Assembly (NCBI RefSeq): GCF_000177235.2
Contig: NC_014829.1
Coordinates: 1,240,001-1,304,000, forward strand
Reading direction: 5' to 3'
DNA: 64,000 nt
Source of the DNA: Evansella cellulosilytica DSM 2522
Lineage (GTDB): Bacteria > Bacillota > Bacilli > Bacillales > Salisediminibacteriaceae
The translations under genes were made by a program, and so were the position numbers. Below, in pieces: positions 54,450 through 64,000 of the stretch (positions are counted from its first letter, which is position 1; each line of letters opens with the position of its first letter). The notes beneath the pieces were generated by a model. It saw only the letters and a program-made list of their open reading frames with translations, was not told where the DNA came from and searched no databases.

Positions 54450-55901
54450 GTGGGTGAGATACTTAGAGAAAATCAAAATAAAAAATTGTTGCTTGAGATG
54501 AGTGTTGTGGATGGTGAATATGACTTCACATCGTCTATTGTCGCAGCATTAAGTCAAGCAGAATTAGAAATACATAATTTAGATGAAACAATTGAGTCAA
54601 TTCAATGCTTAAAGCCTAATTGTGATAAATTGGATTATATATTAGCTGCGAGTTCAGGTGCATTGTGTGGCATCATTGATATTTTCTTGGTTGGTAAACC
54701 TGGAGAATCACCTCTCGGAGATATTACTGATAAGTGGTTTGCTAATCGAACAACTGATTTTGCTAAATTGTATGGATGGGAAGATAAAGGAGAGAACTCT
54801 TTGTCTTCAGCAATTCGTTTTCTTGAAAATAAATTTAAAATTCCATATGACCAGCGTGGAGCTGGTGACGCGGCAAGTTCTGTTTTTGATTTAAGTCCGA
54901 CAAATCATCATTTTAAATCACTCGCACATAATCCTAGTTTGCTTGGTTTGTTTTTTTCAATATTAGACCAGTTTACAAATTCTTCGCATTTTATTTCCGG
55001 TGGTGAACTTATATCTTTAGTTGATGCAGATGAGAAATTCGAGTTAAGAGGAAACAACATACCAAGCAAGTTATTCTGTGCATTTACTAATTGGTTTGGT
55101 CATTTAATATCTGATATGTCAGGCTCAGCAGGTAGCAAGGGCCGTGGAATGGGGATTCCTTCTCCTTTATGGACATGGACAAATGATATCATTGCATTAA
55201 AAAGGACTTTGAATATTCCTGTGTCACAGTTTGATAACTCAATAAACGAGCTAGCTGTAAATATATATAACAAAGGATATGATGCTCGATTCCAGTCGGC
55301 TCAAGCCATTCCAGTTTTTATAAACGAGATGTTAGTTCGACTTGTTTTTGCTATCAGAAGACTTATAAAATATTTTGCTAAAACCAATAAAGAAAATCGT
55401 TCGTTTTCACTTATGTGGAAAAAGTGTGAGCCTTTTTCAAATCCAACTGTTAAAAGAATGTTGACTGTAGCACATGGGACGTTTTGCCTTATAGATATAG
55501 GTGATGCTACTGTTCGTGGTTTTGTAACAGGTGCAGGATCTTTTAATCCGACTGAGTTTTTCTTACGTCTTAACATCGTAGGGGTTGGACGACTTACTAT
55601 TTCCTTATACGGTGAAGTTAAGCGTGAAATTGGCTTTCAAAAAGCAGAAAGAGAAATAATCTTCGCGAGAAAAGAAAAATTGGTTGTAGAAAATTATATT
55701 GAGGGACTTCAACTATTATCCCAATTATATGAAGATAAAAATCTTTTAAATTTTATAACTGATTTCAAGAATAGTGATATGTATATACACGCTTTTGAAA
55801 AATCTGTTTTGTTAGCTAGAAAGAGAAATGTGAAAAATAATGAAATATTAAAAAATAAGATGGAAATAGATTCTTATTTTTTGGGGGGAAATAAAGTGTG
55901 A
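54450..55901 (+). CDS. Unknown 483-residue protein, first gene of a two-gene module
   Basis: GAGGTG is seven bases before GTG 54450. The sequence is soluble and mostly helical, with a central glycine-rich SGSAGSKGRGMGIPSPLW stretch (about 230) and a basic C-terminal region. No known family or active-site motif was recognised. The stop overlaps the next start (GTGA at 55898-55901), so both proteins are probably made together and interact. Codon use is AT-rich like the rest of the island. Confidence 0.7.
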   Translation: MGEILRENQNKKLLLEMSVVDGEYDFTSSIVAALSQAELEIHNLDETIESIQCLKPNCDKLDYILAASSGALCGIIDIFLVGKPGESPLGDITDKWFANRTTDFAKLYGWEDKGENSLSSAIRFLENKFKIPYDQRGAGDAASSVFDLSPTNHHFKSLAHNPSLLGLFFSILDQFTNSSHFISGGELISLVDADEKFELRGNNIPSKLFCAFTNWFGHLISDMSGSAGSKGRGMGIPSPLWTWTNDIIALKRTLNIPVSQFDNSINELAVNIYNKGYDARFQSAQAIPVFINEMLVRLVFAIRRLIKYFAKTNKENRSFSLMWKKCEPFSNPTVKRMLTVAHGTFCLIDIGDATVRGFVTGAGSFNPTEFFLRLNIVGVGRLTISLYGEVKREIGFQKAEREIIFARKEKLVVENYIEGLQLLSQLYEDKNLLNFITDFKNSDMYIHAFEKSVLLARKRNVKNNEILKNKMEIDSYFLGGNKV

Positions 55902-56998
55902 GTAAGAAGAGATCAAATTTACAAATTGCTCAAGAACAAGTTGAATCTACCATCAAAAAGACAAATGATAAAATAGAGGAGCTTGGAAAATATACTAGCA
56001 ATCTTTATACTGCATTAAACGATATTCAGGAGCTATTTGATAAAATTAGAAACGTGCCAAGTCAGAAACACTTGGAATATAAAAAACTAAAAGAAGTACG
56101 TTTGTATTGGAAACAACAGGTTGAAAAAATCAAGTCAGATTATAAAAATGCTGTAGCCAAGAATGCTGGAAAAGGTGTAGCAGGTGTTGGCGCAGGTGTT
56201 GCAGTAGCCGCCCTTGGTCCAACTGCAGCAATGGGAATAGCGACAACTTTCGGTGTTGCATCAACAGGTACGGCTATATCCGCTCTGAGTGGTGCTGCAG
56301 CCACTAAAGCTGCATTAGCGTGGTTAGGTGGTGGAGCACTTGCGGCAGGTGGTGGCGGTATGGCAGCCGGAAATGCTTTCTTAGCTCTTGCTGGACCTGT
56401 TGGTTGGGCAATTGCAAGCATTGCAATTTTGGGTAGTGGACTTCTTTTTTGGAAGACTAAAAGTGATCGGAATCGACTTGAAAACATTTTTACATTGATA
56501 AGTAAGCGAGATAAAAAATCATATGAACTTGCAATTGTTGAGCTTAATGAACGCATATCTCGTATAAAAGACGAAAGTGTTAAACTCAACGATGCGATTG
56601 AAAAGATAGAATCATTTGGAGTGGATTATAATCAAATGACCGAAGTTCAGCAGTTTGAATTAGGAGCTTATGTAAATTTGATGTCAGCATCAACACAATT
56701 GCTTGTAAATCCGATATTAGGTTTGCAACCAAAGTATAATGAAGAAGACTTCAGTAAATTTATTTCTGAAGGTAACGGAAAAGCTAATGAAGTTTTATGT
56801 TCCTCACATAAAGATTTGATCATCGCATTATCAAATCTTTTATATAAAATTAAATTAGATGATAAGGATAAAAAACTTTTGTCGAAGTCCTTTAAAAAGA
56901 ACAAGAGGTTCTTATCATCAATGAATATCTCGAAGAAAGAGTTTGATGATATAATTCTTGATATAGTTTGCGAGGCTCTTTATTTTAAGCTCTGTTAA
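55898..56998 (+). CDS. Coiled-coil protein with long Gly/Ala-rich hydrophobic segment, second gene of module
   Basis: 366 residues. The N-terminal ~80 residues are coiled coil (QEQVESTIKKTNDKIEELGK). Residues about 88-190 form a Gly/Ala-rich hydrophobic stretch with repeated GxxxG-like spacing (GKGVAGVGAGVAVAALGP, GGGALAAGGGGMAAG) ending in IASIAILGSGLLFW. A second coiled coil and a charged C-terminus follow. The centre could insert in membranes as glycine-zipper helices, in the manner of pore-forming or membrane-remodelling proteins. GTG start within GTGA, GGGGGG upstream. Function unknown. Confidence 0.7.
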   Translation: MSKKRSNLQIAQEQVESTIKKTNDKIEELGKYTSNLYTALNDIQELFDKIRNVPSQKHLEYKKLKEVRLYWKQQVEKIKSDYKNAVAKNAGKGVAGVGAGVAVAALGPTAAMGIATTFGVASTGTAISALSGAAATKAALAWLGGGALAAGGGGMAAGNAFLALAGPVGWAIASIAILGSGLLFWKTKSDRNRLENIFTLISKRDKKSYELAIVELNERISRIKDESVKLNDAIEKIESFGVDYNQMTEVQQFELGAYVNLMSASTQLLVNPILGLQPKYNEEDFSKFISEGNGKANEVLCSSHKDLIIALSNLLYKIKLDDKDKKLLSKSFKKNKRFLSSMNISKKEFDDIILDIVCEALYFKLC

Positions 56999-57462
56999 AC
57001 GTTAATGTTGATATCCAGCAAAAAAACGAACATCTGCGGCAAATGGGGACGATTCGCACTTGCTAGTTTTGAAATAGATTCGTAATATATAGTGATTATA
57101 TAATCAAAATTAAAGAAAAAGCGAATACAATTTTCCTCATAAAAAATCTAGGAAGAGAACACTTTAGTGTAATAGTATTATTCTCCTTTTCCCCCTAAGA
57201 AATTATCTTTCTATTAATAAGATATTTATAGATATGGTGCTAGGAAAGCGGTGCGTAATGGTATCGTTAAAGATTGTCCATCAAATAATCTTTCTTGGAA
57301 TATTGAAAATCAAGAATTTTTTCTATTATTATTTAGATTGATCTTTGCTCTAAATGCCAAATACTACCCAAGCCAATGAATTTATAATAAAATTTAAAAA
57401 GCTGGGTCATGCATAATGTTCTCTGAATGGTCGACTATAATAGATAAACTGGAGGTACTAAT
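56999..57462. other. 460-bp gap
   Basis: AT-rich, no convincing frame or hairpin. AACTGGAGGT just before 57463 is the ribosome site of the next gene. Confidence 0.45.
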
Positions 57463-57747
57463 ATGAGTGAAGAACTGGATTTCGTGGCACTTAGAAAGGT
57501 TTCGAGGGAAGAATTTATGAGTCTAGCACAGGATGGTATGCGTGAATTGTTTGACCTGGAACAATACAAAGTGGTGGATAGTTCTAAAGAGAAAAGTATG
57601 TATCATTTTGTATATGACACTAGCACGCATGAGTGCTATTTAATTGATTTGCACATCTGCTACGAACTTTTGGCTGAATTTTTCAGTAAAGGAGATAAGC
57701 AGAAAGTACTTTCTTATTTAAATAAGATTACTGCATTTAAGGAATAA
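57463..57747 (+). CDS. Small hypothetical protein
   Basis: 94 residues, soluble, acidic, no recognised domain. GGAGGT is well placed before ATG 57463 and a perfect terminator follows 18 bases after the stop, so it is a self-contained gene. Context suggests a defence-island accessory or immunity protein, without direct evidence. Confidence 0.6.
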   Translation: MSEELDFVALRKVSREEFMSLAQDGMRELFDLEQYKVVDSSKEKSMYHFVYDTSTHECYLIDLHICYELLAEFFSKGDKQKVLSYLNKITAFKE

Positions 57748-57765
57748 ACAAGCTCTAGCAAAGCA

Positions 57766-57803
57766 GCCTCACGATTCTATAAAATAGACGTGAGGCAGTT
57801 TTT
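57766..57803 (+). terminator. Rho-independent terminator
   Basis: GCCTCACG (57766-57773) pairs with CGTGAGGC (57789-57796), followed by AGTTTTT. Confidence 0.9.
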
Positions 57804-57851
57804 ATGGATGAAATCGTTTAGTATTACGGGGACGGTTCCTTCTATCGTGTG

Positions 57852-57902
57852 GTGCCAGACCCCCAGTACTGTATAGTAATGGGGGTCTGGCACTTTTTTT
57901 TC
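57852..57902 (+). terminator. Terminator, family GTGCCAGACCCCC, best copy
   Basis: GTGCCAGACCCCCA (57852-57865) pairs perfectly with TGGGGGTCTGGCAC (57880-57893), followed by at least seven T. It serves as the reference for the repeat family. Confidence 0.9.
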
Positions 57903-58104
57903 TTGTGTCCGTATTCATCTCTTGAAAGATTTCCCCTATACCTTCTTGTTTTTTACAAATAAAAGGTTACGGTTCATCGTAAATAAAGAAAAAAGTAAGC
58001 GTGAGCCAATTAGTAGATCCACATATTTTTTTAAGATTTGGGTGTAACTATGATTGTTGGAAAATAATTAAAGTAATTAAAATAATCATATTTTTTAAAC
58101 CTTT

Positions 58105-58133
58105 TTGTAAGAAAAAAGGATTGATGATATAAT
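58105..58133 (+). promoter_or_regulatory. Sigma-A promoter of the SIR2 cassette
   Basis: TTGTAA (58105-58110), 17 bases, TATAAT (58128-58133). The preceding AACCTTTTTGT block is shared with the DUF2075 promoter region at 41800. Confidence 0.7.
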
Positions 58134-58176
58134 TTAGAAGATGTTGTAAAATTCTGTTATTTCAGGGGGGCGTTTG

Positions 58177-59439
58177 ATGACTGTTGAATCTATTTATCTA
58201 TTTAATGGTGAAAAGTTTCTAGAATATGTTGATGTAGAATTATTTAAAAAAACAGTTTGTGAGAAATTTGATTTGCCAGATAAGGGAGTTCAAAATTTCG
58301 CTGAATTTTATCAAGATATTATAGAGTTGCGTCCCAAAAGTATAATAAATAAACTACTTTTTGAACATATTTTATATGGGCAACTTAAACATGTATATGT
58401 TCATAAATTAAAAAGTGCAGAAGCTATTGAAATTAATAAATTAACTCCAAATTTAGAACTACTTATTGAAAAATATAAATCCGTTAATATATCAGTTCCT
58501 CTTCAAGAAGCTATGTCACCCAATGGATATAATTTACTTGATCAATTAAATATAAGAAAAAGTAATGTTTATTTTATTGCCGCAATTAATTATAGTGTTG
58601 TCGATGATAAAGTAGATAGGCTCCGATTATTAATTGGAAAAACATATAATGACTCGAAATTAAGGTATATGTTGGCTGGAATAGATATACATTATTCGAA
58701 GGGAGAATGCCTGGTACTAGTTCATAATTGCTCAACAGTTCCAAAAGATGAAGACGATGATGACCAAGTTAGTACCCCGACTAGCTTCCATAACTACATA
58801 GAAAAAAAGATTTTTCCTTATTTATTCATAAATAAATACGTGAATGTTAATTCCGATAGAGAAGCGATGTTTGATTTTTGTAAGGGATTATTAGATAGCA
58901 TGTTTTACGAATCCAGAGAAAAGTTAATGGAGACGATAGAAGAAGACACATTAGATTTTGTTGAAAAGGCAAAAATAAAGCTGGATAAAATTGGAGAGAT
59001 GTCGTCTGCCAGTCATATAAGTGATCTTAATAAAAATATTCAATCGTTACTATTAGGGATATATATGAGAAATAATATCCATGGTGAAAAATTAAGATCC
59101 AAAGCAAAAGAATTAAAGTTATTAGGGTATCCAACAAAAATAAATTATAAAAATGGTAGAGCTAACAATAGTTCTACTGGTTCTAATTCTGCAAAAAAAC
59201 CAATTTATGGTTCAGAGACACTATATAGTTTATATACAGATTTTAATAGTTCAAAGCGTTTAGAAGAGTGGTCAATGGCTTGGTTTACAGATTTTGAGGG
59301 AAGTGACTTAGATGTAATTCGAACAAGAATTATTTCAAAAACAAACTACTTCAAAGTATTATTTGCTCCTACAAGACATTTAGATGAAAGGACTGTATAC
59401 CATGTCGTTAGAGAACTTAATGAAAAGCGTAGCTTCTGA
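58177..59439 (+). CDS. Unknown partner protein of a SIR2 cassette
   Basis: About 420 residues, soluble. AGGGGGG is six bases before ATG 58177. An N-terminal alpha/beta region is followed by RLRLLIGKTYNDSKLRYMLA and GIDIHYSKGECLVLVHN, an acidic linker DEDDDD (~190), a helical part and a low-complexity NSSTGSNSAKK linker (about 325-335) before a C-terminal domain. No family or active site was recognised. The SIR2 gene starts within its last 38 bases. By analogy with other SIR2 defence pairs it may be the sensor that turns on the NAD-consuming effector. Confidence 0.75.
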   Translation: MTVESIYLFNGEKFLEYVDVELFKKTVCEKFDLPDKGVQNFAEFYQDIIELRPKSIINKLLFEHILYGQLKHVYVHKLKSAEAIEINKLTPNLELLIEKYKSVNISVPLQEAMSPNGYNLLDQLNIRKSNVYFIAAINYSVVDDKVDRLRLLIGKTYNDSKLRYMLAGIDIHYSKGECLVLVHNCSTVPKDEDDDDQVSTPTSFHNYIEKKIFPYLFINKYVNVNSDREAMFDFCKGLLDSMFYESREKLMETIEEDTLDFVEKAKIKLDKIGEMSSASHISDLNKNIQSLLLGIYMRNNIHGEKLRSKAKELKLLGYPTKINYKNGRANNSSTGSNSAKKPIYGSETLYSLYTDFNSSKRLEEWSMAWFTDFEGSDLDVIRTRIISKTNYFKVLFAPTRHLDERTVYHVVRELNEKRSF

Positions 59440-60649
59440 TTTACAATTATCAGACGAAGATGCGTTTTTTTTGATAGAGAATATGATAAATTGTATTGGG
59501 CGTGAGCAATTTACAAAGAGATTATTAATTGAAAATCTTACTGACGAGCAAATTTTGGTAATAATTAATTATATGGAACATGAAAAAATAATCACCACAG
59601 AAGTTTCATATGAATGTCCAGTTTTTAATGAATCAAGTGAAACAATACCTTCTGCTAATAAATGTGAATTTTGCGAAGGGAATTTAATGGGGGATATTGA
59701 CCACGAAGTGGAATTTATATACCATTTGAAAGATAATGCTTATAAAGATGTACTTAAGTGGTTGAAAGAAAAAGAAGAAGAAAGGTATTTTAAACACGAA
59801 TTTTTGGATAATCTAAAGAGATTGAAAGAGGCAAGTAACCGGATAATTCCATTCATAGGAGCTGGGTTATCCCTCCCTTTTGGTATACCAAATTGGAGGG
59901 GATTAATTGAAAGATTAAGTCCGTCGTTTGAAAAAAACTATCAAAATGAGATGTTTGACGATTTAATGGACTCTGGTGATTTTATGGAAGCTTTAGAATT
60001 AATAAAAGATAAGTCTTATTTGATTACAGGTGAAAAACAGCTTCAAACAAAAGTAGTTGAAATCATAAAAAATACTCAGTTATCTTATGTTGAAGAAAGA
60101 GAGCATAATTATTCAGATATAGTCAAATTAGAATCTAACTTCTATTTAACAACTAATTATGATTTAATTTTAAGTAAATATTTATCGAAATTTAATGAAT
60201 ATACATCCGCAATGAATTTTAATGAATTCGATGACTCCCAGGAATTACATATTGGGTCTAATCAAGTATTGCACCTTCATGGGAATATAAAACAAAAGGA
60301 AAGTATGGTAGTTTCTAAAAAGAGTTATGAAAAGTTTTATAGCGATAACGATAACAATTTTCGTTTTGTGTCTCTAATTGGTTCCAAACCTTTATTATTT
60401 TTAGGATTTTCTTTTAATGATGCTTTTTTTGAAGACTTATATAATAAGATTTATAACGTAATAAGTGGAAATCATTATATCGTGGTAGCAAACCCAAATT
60501 TTGATACCGCTAGAGAATTAGCAAAGAAAAATTTAAAAGTAATAGGGTTGAATATCAAAAAAAATAAAAATGATGGTACTGATTCACAGGATTATGTAAA
60601 GGCTTTAAAAGTACTCATAAGGTATTTAACAAATGATAATGGTACTTAA
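59402..60649 (+). CDS. SIR2-like NADase-type effector
   Basis: About 415 residues. The N-terminal ~130 residues are helical with a possible metal knuckle (ECPVF..KCEFCEGN). The SIR2_2 domain has FIGAGLS (Gly153-Ala-Gly155), TTNYD (Asn252, Asp254) and LHLHGN (catalytic-type His293). AAAGGA nine bases upstream favours ATG 59402; ATG 59384 is also possible. In Thoeris, DSR and SIR2-HerA systems this fold destroys NAD to stop phage growth; the same role is inferred here. Overlap with the upstream gene implies co-expression. Confidence 0.85.
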   Translation: MSLENLMKSVASDLQLSDEDAFFLIENMINCIGREQFTKRLLIENLTDEQILVIINYMEHEKIITTEVSYECPVFNESSETIPSANKCEFCEGNLMGDIDHEVEFIYHLKDNAYKDVLKWLKEKEEERYFKHEFLDNLKRLKEASNRIIPFIGAGLSLPFGIPNWRGLIERLSPSFEKNYQNEMFDDLMDSGDFMEALELIKDKSYLITGEKQLQTKVVEIIKNTQLSYVEEREHNYSDIVKLESNFYLTTNYDLILSKYLSKFNEYTSAMNFNEFDDSQELHIGSNQVLHLHGNIKQKESMVVSKKSYEKFYSDNDNNFRFVSLIGSKPLLFLGFSFNDAFFEDLYNKIYNVISGNHYIVVANPNFDTARELAKKNLKVIGLNIKKNKNDGTDSQDYVKALKVLIRYLTNDNGT

Positions 60650-61093
60650 AGTGTCGAATGTATTTGGTACAAAGTTCTAACCCTCTTTAATCAATGTTAG
60701 AAGCAAATAACATTAAAGTGGAATTGATGAGGCTAGTGTTAGGACTGGAGTGACATTATCAAGGAAGAGATGACTTTATTGTATATGCTAATTCTCCATT
60801 TTCTCCAATAAATTATTGTCATATTAACATAATATTTCTGGCTTTAGTGCTAGGCAATCAGTGTGAACGGCAACGAACTGAATGCCTAGCACTTTTTTAC
60901 GTGCGAAAAGTTGACTCTAGGGATAAATATCCTTCAAAGGCTTTTTCTCGTTTCTAGTAATCTCCAATAAATCCCTCTGTTTTCCTGAAAATGATCATTA
61001 TTTGTAAAAATGAGTAAATTTTCCTGTTATACTAGTATTAACTATATAGAACCAGATCAAATCATAGATGGATGGATGATGGAGGTGGTCGTT
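60650..61093. other. Gap between SIR2 cassette and helicase gene
   Basis: Contains the terminator at 60846-60898 and the ribosome site GGAGGTGG (61081-61088). No gene was recognised. Confidence 0.5.
60846..60898 (+). terminator. Rho-independent terminator
   Basis: AGTGCTAGGC and GCCTAGCACT form a perfect 10-bp lower stem, extended by TCAGT/ACTGA after one mismatch, followed by six T. Confidence 0.88.
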
Positions 61094-63520
61094 ATGAAGC
61101 TCAATATGGAGCAGAGGCGAATTGTTGAACTAGAGCCGAGTGGTCATATGATGATTAAAGGGGTTGCGGGATCGGGGAAGACAACGGTTTCGGTACGCCG
61201 TATTTCCTTTTTGCATGATCATTATTGTCCTGAAGAGGATGATAATATATTACTAGTTACCTATAACAAAACATTACTCAGTTATATTAAGCATCAATAT
61301 CAAAAGCTTAAGGAAGCGGAGCCTGAACTAGAGTCATTGTTTCAATCAACTAGTGAAATAAAAATAGTGACGATTGATAGTCTCATGTACAAGTACTTTA
61401 ATCAGTATCAACAGAGAGTGAAGACGAAATACGAAACACCAACAGCGCCTGTGGAAAACCAACTGATGATAAAGGCGATTCACCAGTTGAAGGAAAAGTA
61501 TCCTACAAATAGGATCCTGTCACCAAAGAACAGTCTTTTTCTTCGAGATGAAGTGACATGGATTAATGCATGCAATATTCCAGATGTGGAAACGTATCAA
61601 AACATCGACCGTATTGGACGAGCTACGGGTGGTAGTGGTACACCGCAGAAATTAACGAAAAATTCGGAACTAAGGGCTGCTATTTTTGAGTTAATGGAAA
61701 TATTTAATGCACTACTTGAAAACAATGGATACATAACGTTTAAGAAGATGAATCTTCTTGCCTTGCAAGAGGCGCAACAGATGAATCATGGGAAGTATAC
61801 TCATATTATTATTGATGAAAGCCAGGATTTAACGAAGGTTCAGCTAGAATTTTTAAAGTGTATTTACTCCGAAAAGCGCCATTCTTCGATTATGTTTGTG
61901 GCGGATAACACCCAGAGTATTTACTCTCAATCATGGTTAGGGAAGGGACGCCCCTATACAACGATTGGCTATGATATGAGTGGGAAGTCTCGCATGCTGA
62001 CGAAGAATTACCGCACAACAACGGAAATCTCAACTGCTGCTTATGGATTAATTGAGCATGATGTAAATATTAATAACAATGTGGATTTCGTGAAGCCATC
62101 CTTAATCGATAGACACGGTCACCCACCGATGTATCGTTTTTTCACAAGCAGTGCGATGCAATTAGATTTCTTAATCAGTGAGATTACTACATTATTAAAT
62201 GACTATAGGCATTCTGATATTTGTATTGTTGCCAAAGAGAAGCGTTTGATTGAAAGTGTGAGTGTCGGGTTAGAAAACGCAGAGATATTTAGTGAAATTT
62301 TAAATTCTACTAAGCCGGATTTTGATTCGAATAAAGTGAAACTAGTAACCATGCATTCAATAAAAGGGTTAGAATTTAAAGTTATTTTCCTCATTGATTT
62401 AAATGAAGGGGTCATACCAAATGATAGCCTTTATGATTTGGATGATGAGGCGACACTAGACTCGGAGGAGCGGAAGTTGCTTTATGTGGGGATGACGAGA
62501 GCGAATGATCTTTTATACATGTCTTCCGTCAGAAAACCATCTAAATTTATTAAGGAAATAACTAACGATCATTTACGGGTCAAACGGGACTGTACATTAA
62601 GACCGTTTCATTCGATTGGAATACAGGATTATCAGTTAACGAATCAACTGGTGGATATTAATGCTAAGGAAGAGGTTGTCCGTCAATGGCTACTGAAGGA
62701 ATTGGTGAATACGTATGGATATCCGTTAGAGCTTATTAAACTAGAGTTTCCTGTTCAGCAATTTTCAAAACGAGGGTATGTGGATATTGGCGTGAGTATT
62801 TTCGTGAACGGTGAGATGGTTCCTTATATTTTTGCAGAAATCAAGCGGTTTGGTGCAGGAATTGAGTCTGGTTTCGCGCAACTGACATCCTATATAGAGG
62901 CAGATGCCTCGGTTCGGTATGGAGTTGTAACTGATGGGTTGGAAATTAAATGTGTTGATCGACAAGGAGAAGTGCTTAACGATATTCCAAAATGTCGTCC
63001 TCAATTTTTACCTGAAACAAAAGAAAAAAGAATGTATCTAAATCTAAAGAACGGAAAGAAATACTCTTATGCAACAGAAATTGGTGATACAGAGAATATG
63101 GAAATAAGTGACTCGGCAAGTGGATTGTTCGTGGAATATGAAACGAAAACGAGGGTGCCTCTTATTGGAAATGTTGCGGCTGGTGTCCCAACCACGGCGG
63201 AAGAGCAATATGAAAGTGTGATTGTCCTGCCGAATGATTGGATAGCCTCTCCTAATGATACGTTTGCACTAACGGTGACGGGAGATAGTATGATCGGTGC
63301 CGGCATAGATAAAGGCGACCAGGTAATCGTCAATCGGCAAAACGTCGCATCCAATGGTGATATCGTCATTGCGATTATAGAAGAAGAAGCAACGATGAAG
63401 AAATTCATGCTGATGGGCGATTCCGTTCTACTAATCTCAGAAAATAGCAGCTACGAACCGATACAAATGAAAAGGGAAGATGTGTTGATTAATGGGAAGG
63501 TTATTGGGGTTTTGAAGTAG
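61094..63520 (+). CDS. UvrD-type helicase fused to HsdR-N-like nuclease and LexA-like peptidase
   Basis: About 808 residues in three parts. (1) Superfamily 1 helicase: Walker A GVAGSGKT (23-30), IIDESQDLTK, and the C-terminal HSIKGLEFKVIFLID and GMTRANDLLY motifs. (2) A type I restriction N-terminal-like nuclease with Asp564 (VDIGV) and Glu582-x-Lys584 (AEIKRFG). (3) A LexA/S24 peptidase with cleavage site Ala696-Gly697 (NVAAGVP), nucleophile Ser732 (TGDSMI) and Lys769 (ATMKKF). The Ser-Lys distance of 37 equals that of E. coli LexA (119 to 156). GGAGGTGG sets ATG 61094, so the open frame back to 61010 is not used. Confidence 0.88.
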   Translation: MKLNMEQRRIVELEPSGHMMIKGVAGSGKTTVSVRRISFLHDHYCPEEDDNILLVTYNKTLLSYIKHQYQKLKEAEPELESLFQSTSEIKIVTIDSLMYKYFNQYQQRVKTKYETPTAPVENQLMIKAIHQLKEKYPTNRILSPKNSLFLRDEVTWINACNIPDVETYQNIDRIGRATGGSGTPQKLTKNSELRAAIFELMEIFNALLENNGYITFKKMNLLALQEAQQMNHGKYTHIIIDESQDLTKVQLEFLKCIYSEKRHSSIMFVADNTQSIYSQSWLGKGRPYTTIGYDMSGKSRMLTKNYRTTTEISTAAYGLIEHDVNINNNVDFVKPSLIDRHGHPPMYRFFTSSAMQLDFLISEITTLLNDYRHSDICIVAKEKRLIESVSVGLENAEIFSEILNSTKPDFDSNKVKLVTMHSIKGLEFKVIFLIDLNEGVIPNDSLYDLDDEATLDSEERKLLYVGMTRANDLLYMSSVRKPSKFIKEITNDHLRVKRDCTLRPFHSIGIQDYQLTNQLVDINAKEEVVRQWLLKELVNTYGYPLELIKLEFPVQQFSKRGYVDIGVSIFVNGEMVPYIFAEIKRFGAGIESGFAQLTSYIEADASVRYGVVTDGLEIKCVDRQGEVLNDIPKCRPQFLPETKEKRMYLNLKNGKKYSYATEIGDTENMEISDSASGLFVEYETKTRVPLIGNVAAGVPTTAEEQYESVIVLPNDWIASPNDTFALTVTGDSMIGAGIDKGDQVIVNRQNVASNGDIVIAIIEEEATMKKFMLMGDSVLLISENSSYEPIQMKREDVLINGKVIGVLK

Positions 63521-63611
63521 GGAGAATTATTATTATTTCCAGAAAAATTAAGGATAATAGATATATAATACTAAGGAGACTTTTGTTCATTTGGAGGGGG
63601 AGCGGGATATA

Positions 63612-64000
63612 ATGGATAAAGAAATTAAGCTAGAGCAAAAGAAATTTGATGAGACTGTGAAAAAAATTAGCGATCGAAGTTATTATATAAGTGAAATAAT
63701 AAACAGAAAACGAAATTCTTTTAGAAAAAGAGAAAACAGTGTAGGGGATGAAATTGTATATTCTAGAGCAAAAATTGATGAACAAAATTTACTAAAAGCT
63801 AAAAAAGAGCCGTTCTTTGGCAAACTTGATATAGATGATGGAGATAGGGAGTCATTTTATATAGGGAAATATGGTGTTCGTGACTTAGATGAAAATTTAA
63901 TCGTCGTTGATTGGCGAATGCCGATGGCTTCTGTGTTTTATAATTTTACTCCAGGGGAATCACTACAAACTATTAGTTTTGAAGATAAATATGGTAGAAA
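63612..64000 (+). CDS. HelD-like UvrD-family helicase (partial, 5' end)
   Basis: ATG 63612 preceded by GGAGGGGG; the frame is open to the window edge (129 residues). The N-terminal coiled coil and the segments EPFFGKLDIDD, SFYIGKYGVRDLDENLIVV and DWRMPMASVFYNF match the N-terminal region of HelD, which recycles RNA polymerase in Firmicutes, and its paralogues. The helicase core lies beyond the window. Confidence 0.85.
   Translation, partial: MDKEIKLEQKKFDETVKKISDRSYYISEIINRKRNSFRKRENSVGDEIVYSRAKIDEQNLLKAKKEPFFGKLDIDDGDRESFYIGKYGVRDLDENLIVVDWRMPMASVFYNFTPGESLQTISFEDKYGR

Follow-up and report, generated by a model that had tools for sequence, protein, structure and literature searches.

The locus and its protein product

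The window analysed here is a stretch of 64,000 nucleotides from Evansella cellulosilytica DSM 2522 (contig NC_014829.1, positions 1,240,001 to 1,304,000), and all coordinates below are positions within it. It contains, on the forward strand at 61094..63520, a gene encoding a protein of 808 amino acids, hereafter P0001, in which a helicase and a nuclease are joined to an S24 peptidase. A single open frame runs without internal stops from the ATG at 61094 to the stop at 63520. It is preceded by a Shine-Dalgarno-like GGAGGTGG at 61081-61088, and five relatives share the start methionine. The order of the Pfam domains is UvrD-helicase (residues 3-278, E value 6.4e-24), UvrD_C (408-480, 3e-24), HSDR_N_2 (525-632, 1.5e-23) and Peptidase_S24 (689-804, 1.6e-32). 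The open frame and the Pfam matches confirm an earlier proposal, made from the DNA letters and their translation (the sequence-only reading), that one protein combines a UvrD-type helicase, an HsdR-N-like PD-(D/E)XK nuclease and a LexA/S24 peptidase. The AlphaFold2 model, based on an alignment of 47 sequences, is confident, with the mean predicted local distance difference test score (pLDDT) of 86.3 and the predicted template modelling score (pTM) of 0.73. P0001 is neither a chance fusion nor an assembly artefact, since proteins with the same order of three domains are encoded elsewhere.

Two groups of relatives are considered below, full-length three-domain proteins (the long form, P0001 included) and shorter proteins that retain the helicase N-half and the S24 domain (the short form). 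Residue conservation was counted over 76 distinct long and 40 distinct short proteins.

The helicase part occupies residues 3-480 (61100..62533, forward strand, as are all features of P0001). Its landmarks are the Walker A residues K29/T30, motif II D241-E242-S243-Q244, R307, and R469 of motif VI. K29, T30, D241, E242, Q244, R307 and R469 are each kept in 76/76 long proteins. These are the Walker A, DExQ and arginine-bearing motifs of superfamily 1 (SF1) helicases, and the fold agrees: the best 50 Foldseek matches of the P0001 model in the PDB are PcrA, UvrD, Rep, AddA, RecB and AdnAB structures, all aligned to the helicase part, with PcrA/UvrD as the best. The scores against the NCBIfam equivalog models are below the cut-offs (113.9 versus 911.2 for pcrA and 102.5 versus 1144.45 for uvrD). 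The P0001 helicase is a relative, and no equivalog, of UvrD/PcrA.

The nuclease part is the HSDR_N_2 match at residues 525-632 (62666..62989). The D...ExK signature of PD-(D/E)XK enzymes is formed by D564, E582 and K584, followed downstream by the QxxxY motif, Q596xxxY600. D564, K584 and Q596 are invariant in the long form, E582 is kept in 75/76 proteins (valine in L077), and Y600 in 75/76. The P0001 family thus has the residues of an HsdR-N-like nuclease.

The LexA-type module

S24 domains that cleave themselves are known from repressors and from UmuD. In P0001, residues 685-808 (63146..63517) form a predicted self-cleaving S24 peptidase domain of the LexA type, as indicated by Pfam, by the NCBIfam lexA model, which scores 123.2 bits over residues 680-807 and passes the curated cut-off of 110.95, and by the closest PDB sequence match of the C-terminal part, LexA 3k2z (3.1e-20). 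The domain is 48 percent identical to the host's own LexA.

The predicted self-cleavage site is Ala696-Gly697 (63179..63184), and the cut would expose a C-terminus ending in ...NVAA. The predicted nucleophile is Ser732 (63287..63289), and the predicted general base is Lys769 (63398..63400). The translation bears out the positions of these residues given by the sequence-only reading, as well as the spacings of 35 between Gly and Ser and 37 between Ser and Lys, which recur in 71/76 and 68/76 distinct long proteins, respectively, and both in 40/40 short ones. Ser and Lys are present in 76/76 long and 40/40 short proteins, and Ala-Gly in 72/76 and 40/40; for the pooled forms the counts are 116/116 and 112/116. 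Homologues lacking Ala-Gly, Ser or Lys had been named in advance as evidence against a cleavable module. None lacks Ser or Lys, and four long proteins deviate at the dipeptide. The S24 fold, seen in the model of a short relative, thus goes together with Ala-Gly, Ser and Lys at the LexA spacing, and conservation gives good support to a self-cleavable LexA module being part of an enzyme.

That the S24 domain has stopped cleaving and now serves as a platform for dimerisation or docking is very improbable. S24 domains do dimerise in LexA and UmuD', and the dipeptide is altered in the four long proteins just mentioned, but docking alone would not require the catalytic Ser and Lys, which are universal, or the nearly universal Ala-Gly.

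Just N-terminal of the S24 domain, at residues 640-673 (63011..63112), there is a small beta module common to the long and short forms. Its strands are seen in the AlphaFold2 models of both P0001 and the short form L150, and in most of the segments compared, 8 from long and 12 from short proteins, it carries a motif resembling Y-x-[ND]-L-[KR].

Phylogenetic distribution of the long form

The sequence-only reading had suggested looking for the same three-domain order in other genomes. Genome searches did find it, in particular in Ilyobacter, in Planococcus and in the Clostridium-type order. The set of long proteins comprises 60 full-length sequences and 19 from the Clostridium-type order, that is, 79 rows. 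After merging of the identical pairs L010/L047, L011/L041 and L012/L042, 76 distinct proteins remain, of which some are still more than 95 percent alike. They span the Bacillota and the Fusobacteriota.

In the order of E. cellulosilytica, 5 of the 299 genomes sampled have a match at E ≤ 1e-60, its own genome included. In Planococcus, the genus of L031, matches occur in 24 of 46 genomes, three of them being partial or containing stops. In the order of Clostridium acidisoli (L055), there are matches at E ≤ 1e-25 in 107 of 225 genomes, a number to which short forms and some plain LexA proteins also contribute and which therefore does not measure the long form; the whole query is spanned by 29 rows, two of them with an internal stop. 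An alignment of six sequences was also used to scan 84,980 genomes, one for each species; this yielded 146 confirmed stretches, of which we kept the best 80. Among these 80, there are 54 full-length three-domain proteins, and the other 26 are eight interrupted copies, five partial or truncated ones, three lacking S24, two short forms and eight helicase-only matches. One further full-length copy, annotated as an S24 family peptidase, resides on an Ilyobacter plasmid.

Eight relatives (L032, L046, L065, L067, L072, L075, L080, L082) are split into at least two frames. This suggests frequent decay of the gene, unless the splits are sequencing errors. The Bacteroidota have helicase relatives (L081:7989-10265 and L086:1167-3497) with a different C-terminal part that carries an R-N-x-A-T-H motif near the end. 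A HEPN interpretation of these C-terminal parts was dropped, as Pfam gave it no support.

Short proteins with a helicase half and an S24 domain

The short proteins, 461-547 amino acids long, come from the Clostridium-type order. They consist of the helicase N-half and S24, with neither the helicase C-half nor the nuclease. The corresponding loci (L106-L112, L114, L143-L162, L164-L177 and L182) are frequent in Clostridium-type genomes. The Walker A lysine is present in 40/40, and motif II is eroded, with E242 retained in 11/40 and Q244 in 14/40. Motif II has decayed, yet no short protein has lost Ala-Gly, Ser or Lys, so it is the cleavage chemistry that selection preserves.

The AlphaFold2 model of the short form L150 (mean pLDDT 85.0, pTM 0.62) matches UvrD-type helicases and LexA. 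Its S24 part superimposes on LexA 1jhe_A with the root-mean-square deviation (rmsd) of 2.0 and on the RecA-bound LexA structures 8gms_A and 8s7g_A with 2.2 and 2.3; the fit to the nanobody-bound LexA 7b5g is looser, about 4. The model gives a weak hint of a cleavable-like loop.

In the S24 tree (FastTree, 141 sequences including identical pairs), the long and short forms group together, with the weak support of 0.735, and the group adjoins a clade that holds LexA together with LexA-like proteins of phages. Nested within the clostridial long forms are two groups of short ones, with 32 and 8 sequences. The tree is most simply explained by a single fusion and at least one later decay. Among 38 short-form loci, at most six have a neighbour cluster in common.

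A short protein might act as a LexA-like sensor in which a domain derived from a dead helicase half takes the place of the helix-turn-helix. The retention of a Walker-A-bearing helicase half together with the cleavage residues could also mean that the helicase part itself is the sensor, in which case S24, that of P0001 included, would cleave without RecA, in response to the enzyme's own DNA binding or to another signal. There is a precedent in the LexA-like IrvR, reported to depart from the RecA rule in the accessible text of PMC7101444. Such exceptions aside, the same text describes LexA-like proteins as RecA-controlled, and the S24 domain of P0001 resembles the C-terminal domains of LexA, including the host's own. 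We consider RecA-free cleavage quite unlikely, and RecA filaments a plausible candidate trigger.

Absence of an SOS box

We looked for SOS boxes upstream of both forms. A loose palindrome scan gave no excess over shuffled sequences. A sharper pattern occurs upstream of 0/76 distinct long genes and 0/40 short genes, and of 16/16 host lexA genes taken as controls; as the pattern was sharpened after inspection of the lexA upstream regions, the controls demonstrate sensitivity only. SOS regulation of the long gene was therefore rejected, and promoter control of P0001-type genes by LexA is unlikely, judging from these upstream regions. Since there is no SOS box, the switch should act post-translationally, on the protein. 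LexA, RecA and ClpX are all encoded in the host genome.

Proposed direction of the switch

Seven long relatives lack S24, and six of them also lack an intact nuclease. In L103, L104 and L178, E582 is replaced by K and K584 by N; in L105, the nuclease region is deleted; L179 and L180 end upstream of the nuclease. The seventh, L016:8001-9872, is the Evansella tamaricis copy, 86 percent identical to P0001. It is devoid of the first 14 residues, both its ends are replaced by unrelated sequence, and there is no run of N at them. It looks like a remnant. The genomes of L103, L104, L105 and L178 also have a short form. The mostly linked loss of nuclease and peptidase fits, without proving, a role of the peptidase in the control of the nuclease.

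We propose that P0001 would be a restriction-like helicase-nuclease that stands alone and carries its own safety catch of the LexA type. In an undamaged cell, the enzyme would be present with its S24 module intact. RecA filaments formed on damaged host DNA would stimulate S24 to cut its own chain at Ala696-Gly697, parting the helicase-nuclease from the peptidase, which in LexA is the dimerising part. The helicase-nuclease, now ending in -NVAA, would display a LexA-like ClpXP degron and be destroyed during DNA repair. We infer expression before the damage, the cleavage, RecA as the trigger, ClpXP as the finishing protease, and OFF rather than ON as the result. The enzyme is probably switched, and most likely destroyed, upon damage to the cell's own DNA. 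To the favoured reading, a built-in restriction alleviation triggered by RecA filaments and executed by self-cleavage and ClpXP, we give a probability of roughly 45 percent.

The sequence-only reading, with RecA filaments as the trigger and a cut between nuclease and peptidase, had allowed for either direction. The OFF direction is favoured because of the residues that the cut would expose, the ClpXP degrons of LexA-like proteins, and the destruction of HsdR by ClpXP. The predicted P3-P1 residues are VAA or IAA in 66/76 long proteins and IAA in 40/40 short ones, which is only suggestive of a ClpXP degron. In vitro, ClpXP of Clostridium thermocellum degraded seven RsgI fragments ending in VAA, IAA, SAA or SVA, according to the available part of PMC12203970. 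In LexA-like proteins, buried ClpXP degrons adjoin the cleavage site (PMC5742171, accessible sections). The available text on EcoKI restriction alleviation (PMC11109961) reports that HsdR is degraded by ClpXP, a fate similar to that proposed for P0001.

The opposite direction, in which S24 holds the nuclease inactive until a RecA-stimulated cut, following phage-induced or other DNA damage, frees an active helicase-nuclease, is unlikely. The loss of nuclease residues in six of the seven S24-less relatives, all except L016, would be expected if an uncontrolled nuclease is toxic, and UmuD is a case of activation by cleavage. Defence-like genes lie near P0001, and mREase_IV-like proteins account for 6/149 long-form neighbours and for none of 149 short-form ones. 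However, the freed enzyme would mostly end in VAA or IAA, a ClpXP-type degron, and the short class has no nuclease to free, yet retains the cleavage residues in 40/40. In LexA-like proteins, moreover, it is the N-terminal part that is degraded after cleavage (PMC5742171, in the same sections).

Several points weigh against the OFF reading and its premises. The S24-less L016 retains the nuclease D, E and K, and L103, L104, L105 and L178 are closely related, so their linked loss represents few events. The exact Ala-Gly is absent from four long proteins, which have S-G-D (L013), A-S-G (L120 and L121) and A-D (L134). The S24 part of L150 fits the RecA-bound LexA 8trg worse than the structures listed above (rmsd 4.6 and 9.5), and the same holds for other LexA chains. 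A VAA or IAA ending is also within LexA's own cleavage consensus, hence it is no independent evidence for a degron. The restriction role is uncertain, as the neighbourhoods vary. An RsgI fragment with an FAA end resisted ClpXP, as stated in the accessible part of PMC12203970. Finally, plasmid-induced restriction alleviation in E. coli is independent of the SOS response, by the available text of PMC11109961; since the alleviation there needs no SOS response, the EcoKI analogy is functional only.

Genomic neighbourhood

The genes upstream of P0001 encode, in this order, a BnzB-like protein, a PDC-M09A-like protein and a SIR2 (LmuA/ThsA-like) protein; downstream is the start of a HelD-like gene. 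The scan of the P0001 neighbourhood covered six genes in 54450-63998. The stretch 54450-60649 is defence-like, with the BnzB-like (PADLOC, 1.9e-107) and PDC-M09A-like (4.1e-71) matches, a 421-aa protein of unknown kind at 58174-59439, and the SIR2 protein (LmuA-like, 7e-59) at 59384-60649, which overlaps the latter. Between the SIR2 gene and the P0001 gene, at 60840-60895, there is an inverted repeat with a T run after it, which looks by eye like an intrinsic terminator. Since this terminator-like repeat separates it from the SIR2 gene, the P0001 gene is probably transcribed on its own. At 63591-63998, the beginning of a gene for a HelD-like RNA polymerase recycling helicase is cut by the window end, and the genome contains a further match to the search query just past that end.

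For the long form in general, we compared 149 neighbours from 27 loci (including the truncated or interrupted L016, L032 and L067) with defence models at E ≤ 1e-20. Among the best 25 of 100 families, the matches are to mREase_IV (6), PbeA (3) and retron-type reverse transcriptase (2); the PbeA and mREase_IV matches overlap on both proteins rechecked. The 149 neighbours of 26 short-form loci match only the mad3 (4), M37B (3) and DolB (3) models. A clustered HNH protein is encoded at most three genes away from the long gene in L009, L020, L052, L054 and L055.

At L009, L018, L020 and L052-L055, recurring neighbours appear in varied combinations: HNH, MazG-like, NUDIX, and PLD-SF2 helicase-DUF3427-type proteins (SF2, superfamily 2). 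By clustering, this partial cassette has HNH in five loci, MazG-like proteins in four and NUDIX in three, with Pfam run on one or two members of each cluster; the MazG-like Pfam match is below its cut-off. Only for L018, L052 and L054 did verification confirm PLD-SF2 helicase-DUF3427 or mREase_IV-type proteins. The cluster of SF2-helicase neighbours, present in nine loci, mixes unrelated SF2 helicases, and hence this count overstates the link. The remaining long-form neighbours belong to mixed families, such as transport, chemotaxis and metabolism, and the Ilyobacter copy sits among metabolic genes. A fixed operon partner was rejected: when the neighbours at 78 loci were clustered, none of the other clusters extended beyond 11 loci.

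In part of its range, the surroundings of the long form thus lean to restriction or defence. The link to phage attack, suggested by the sequence-only reading, finds partial support in that the neighbours of P0001 are defence-like and type IV-like restriction proteins accompany long relatives and not the control set; the Ilyobacter surroundings and the lack of a cluster beyond 11/78 loci do not support it.

P0001 might alternatively be an enzyme of DNA repair rather than of restriction or defence, with S24 cleavage tuning end processing during the SOS response, which would be compatible with either direction of the switch. The metabolic genes around the Ilyobacter copy and the mixed families elsewhere agree with such a role, as do the matches in about half of the Planococcus genomes (24/46, with the three partial or stop-containing ones) and the helicase fold, nearest to PcrA/UvrD, with RecB and AddA among its relatives. 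On the other hand, the distribution is patchy, with 5/299 sampled genomes in the order of the host, copies are interrupted at 8/80 scanned loci, and defence-like genes lie beside P0001 and at some other loci. We consider this role somewhat unlikely.

Comparison with known systems

P0001 shares with LexA the S24 domain, Ala-Gly, Ser and Lys at nearly equal spacing, and a score above the lexA model cut-off. In place of the N-terminal helix-turn-helix of LexA, it has the helicase and the nuclease. The traits of a LexA repressor, a winged helix-turn-helix and autoregulation through an SOS box, were not seen: Pfam yields no helix-turn-helix at E ≤ 0.1, in agreement with the sequence-only reading, and no gene of either form has an upstream SOS box, that of P0001 included. 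UmuD and HumD also have a self-cleaving S24 domain tied to a DNA-processing enzyme. Their NCBIfam models match P0001 below the cut-offs, and UmuD is a polymerase V subunit in its own right, whereas the S24 domain of P0001 is covalently a part of the helicase-nuclease.

As in HsdR of type I restriction systems, an HsdR-N-like nuclease (HSDR_N_2) is joined to a helicase motor. However, the HsdR motor is of SF2, and that of P0001 is SF1, UvrD-type, with the nuclease C-terminal to the helicase. Unlike in HsdR, the proteolysis signal of P0001 would be self-generated. Membership in a type I system was rejected, since there is no HsdM or HsdS among the six neighbours scanned and no partner is common to most related loci.

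The P0001 helicase matches the PADLOC models of GajB (best 3.1e-33) and NERD+UvrD (6.6e-32) and thus resembles UvrD-like defence helicases. Unlike P0001, GajB is not known to have a nuclease or S24 part. Membership in Gabija was rejected, as no gene for GajA, the OLD-type nuclease, was recognised among the same six neighbours. With RecB, AddA and AdnAB, which account for part of the Foldseek matches to the helicase, P0001 shares an SF1 helicase followed by a PD-(D/E)XK nuclease with QxxxY. It differs from them in being a single chain of 808 residues with a nuclease of the HsdR-N type and a terminal LexA module.

Among the papers listed in searches of the open literature, we recognised none describing the helicase-nuclease-S24 architecture. 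Aravind et al. 2013 (PMC3765255), in the accessible part, is concerned with SRAP and ImuB-C, not with a helicase-nuclease-S24 fusion.

A broader picture is possible, though doubtful. Restriction alleviation would be hard-wired into the nuclease itself, RecA filaments leading to self-cleavage and ClpXP destruction without transcriptional SOS control, and decay in the clostridia would have produced LexA-like sensors with a dead helicase half replacing the DNA-binding domain. As candidate damage sensors, the short proteins of Clostridium-type genomes seemingly make up a class that is still undescribed.

In the long family, the predicted S24 self-cleavage module is built into a DNA-degrading motor, and the cleavage residues are kept across two phyla. 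If the proposed switch is real, a nuclease would be under the direct control of DNA damage through the protein itself, and this would explain how a stand-alone restriction-like enzyme spares the chromosome under repair.

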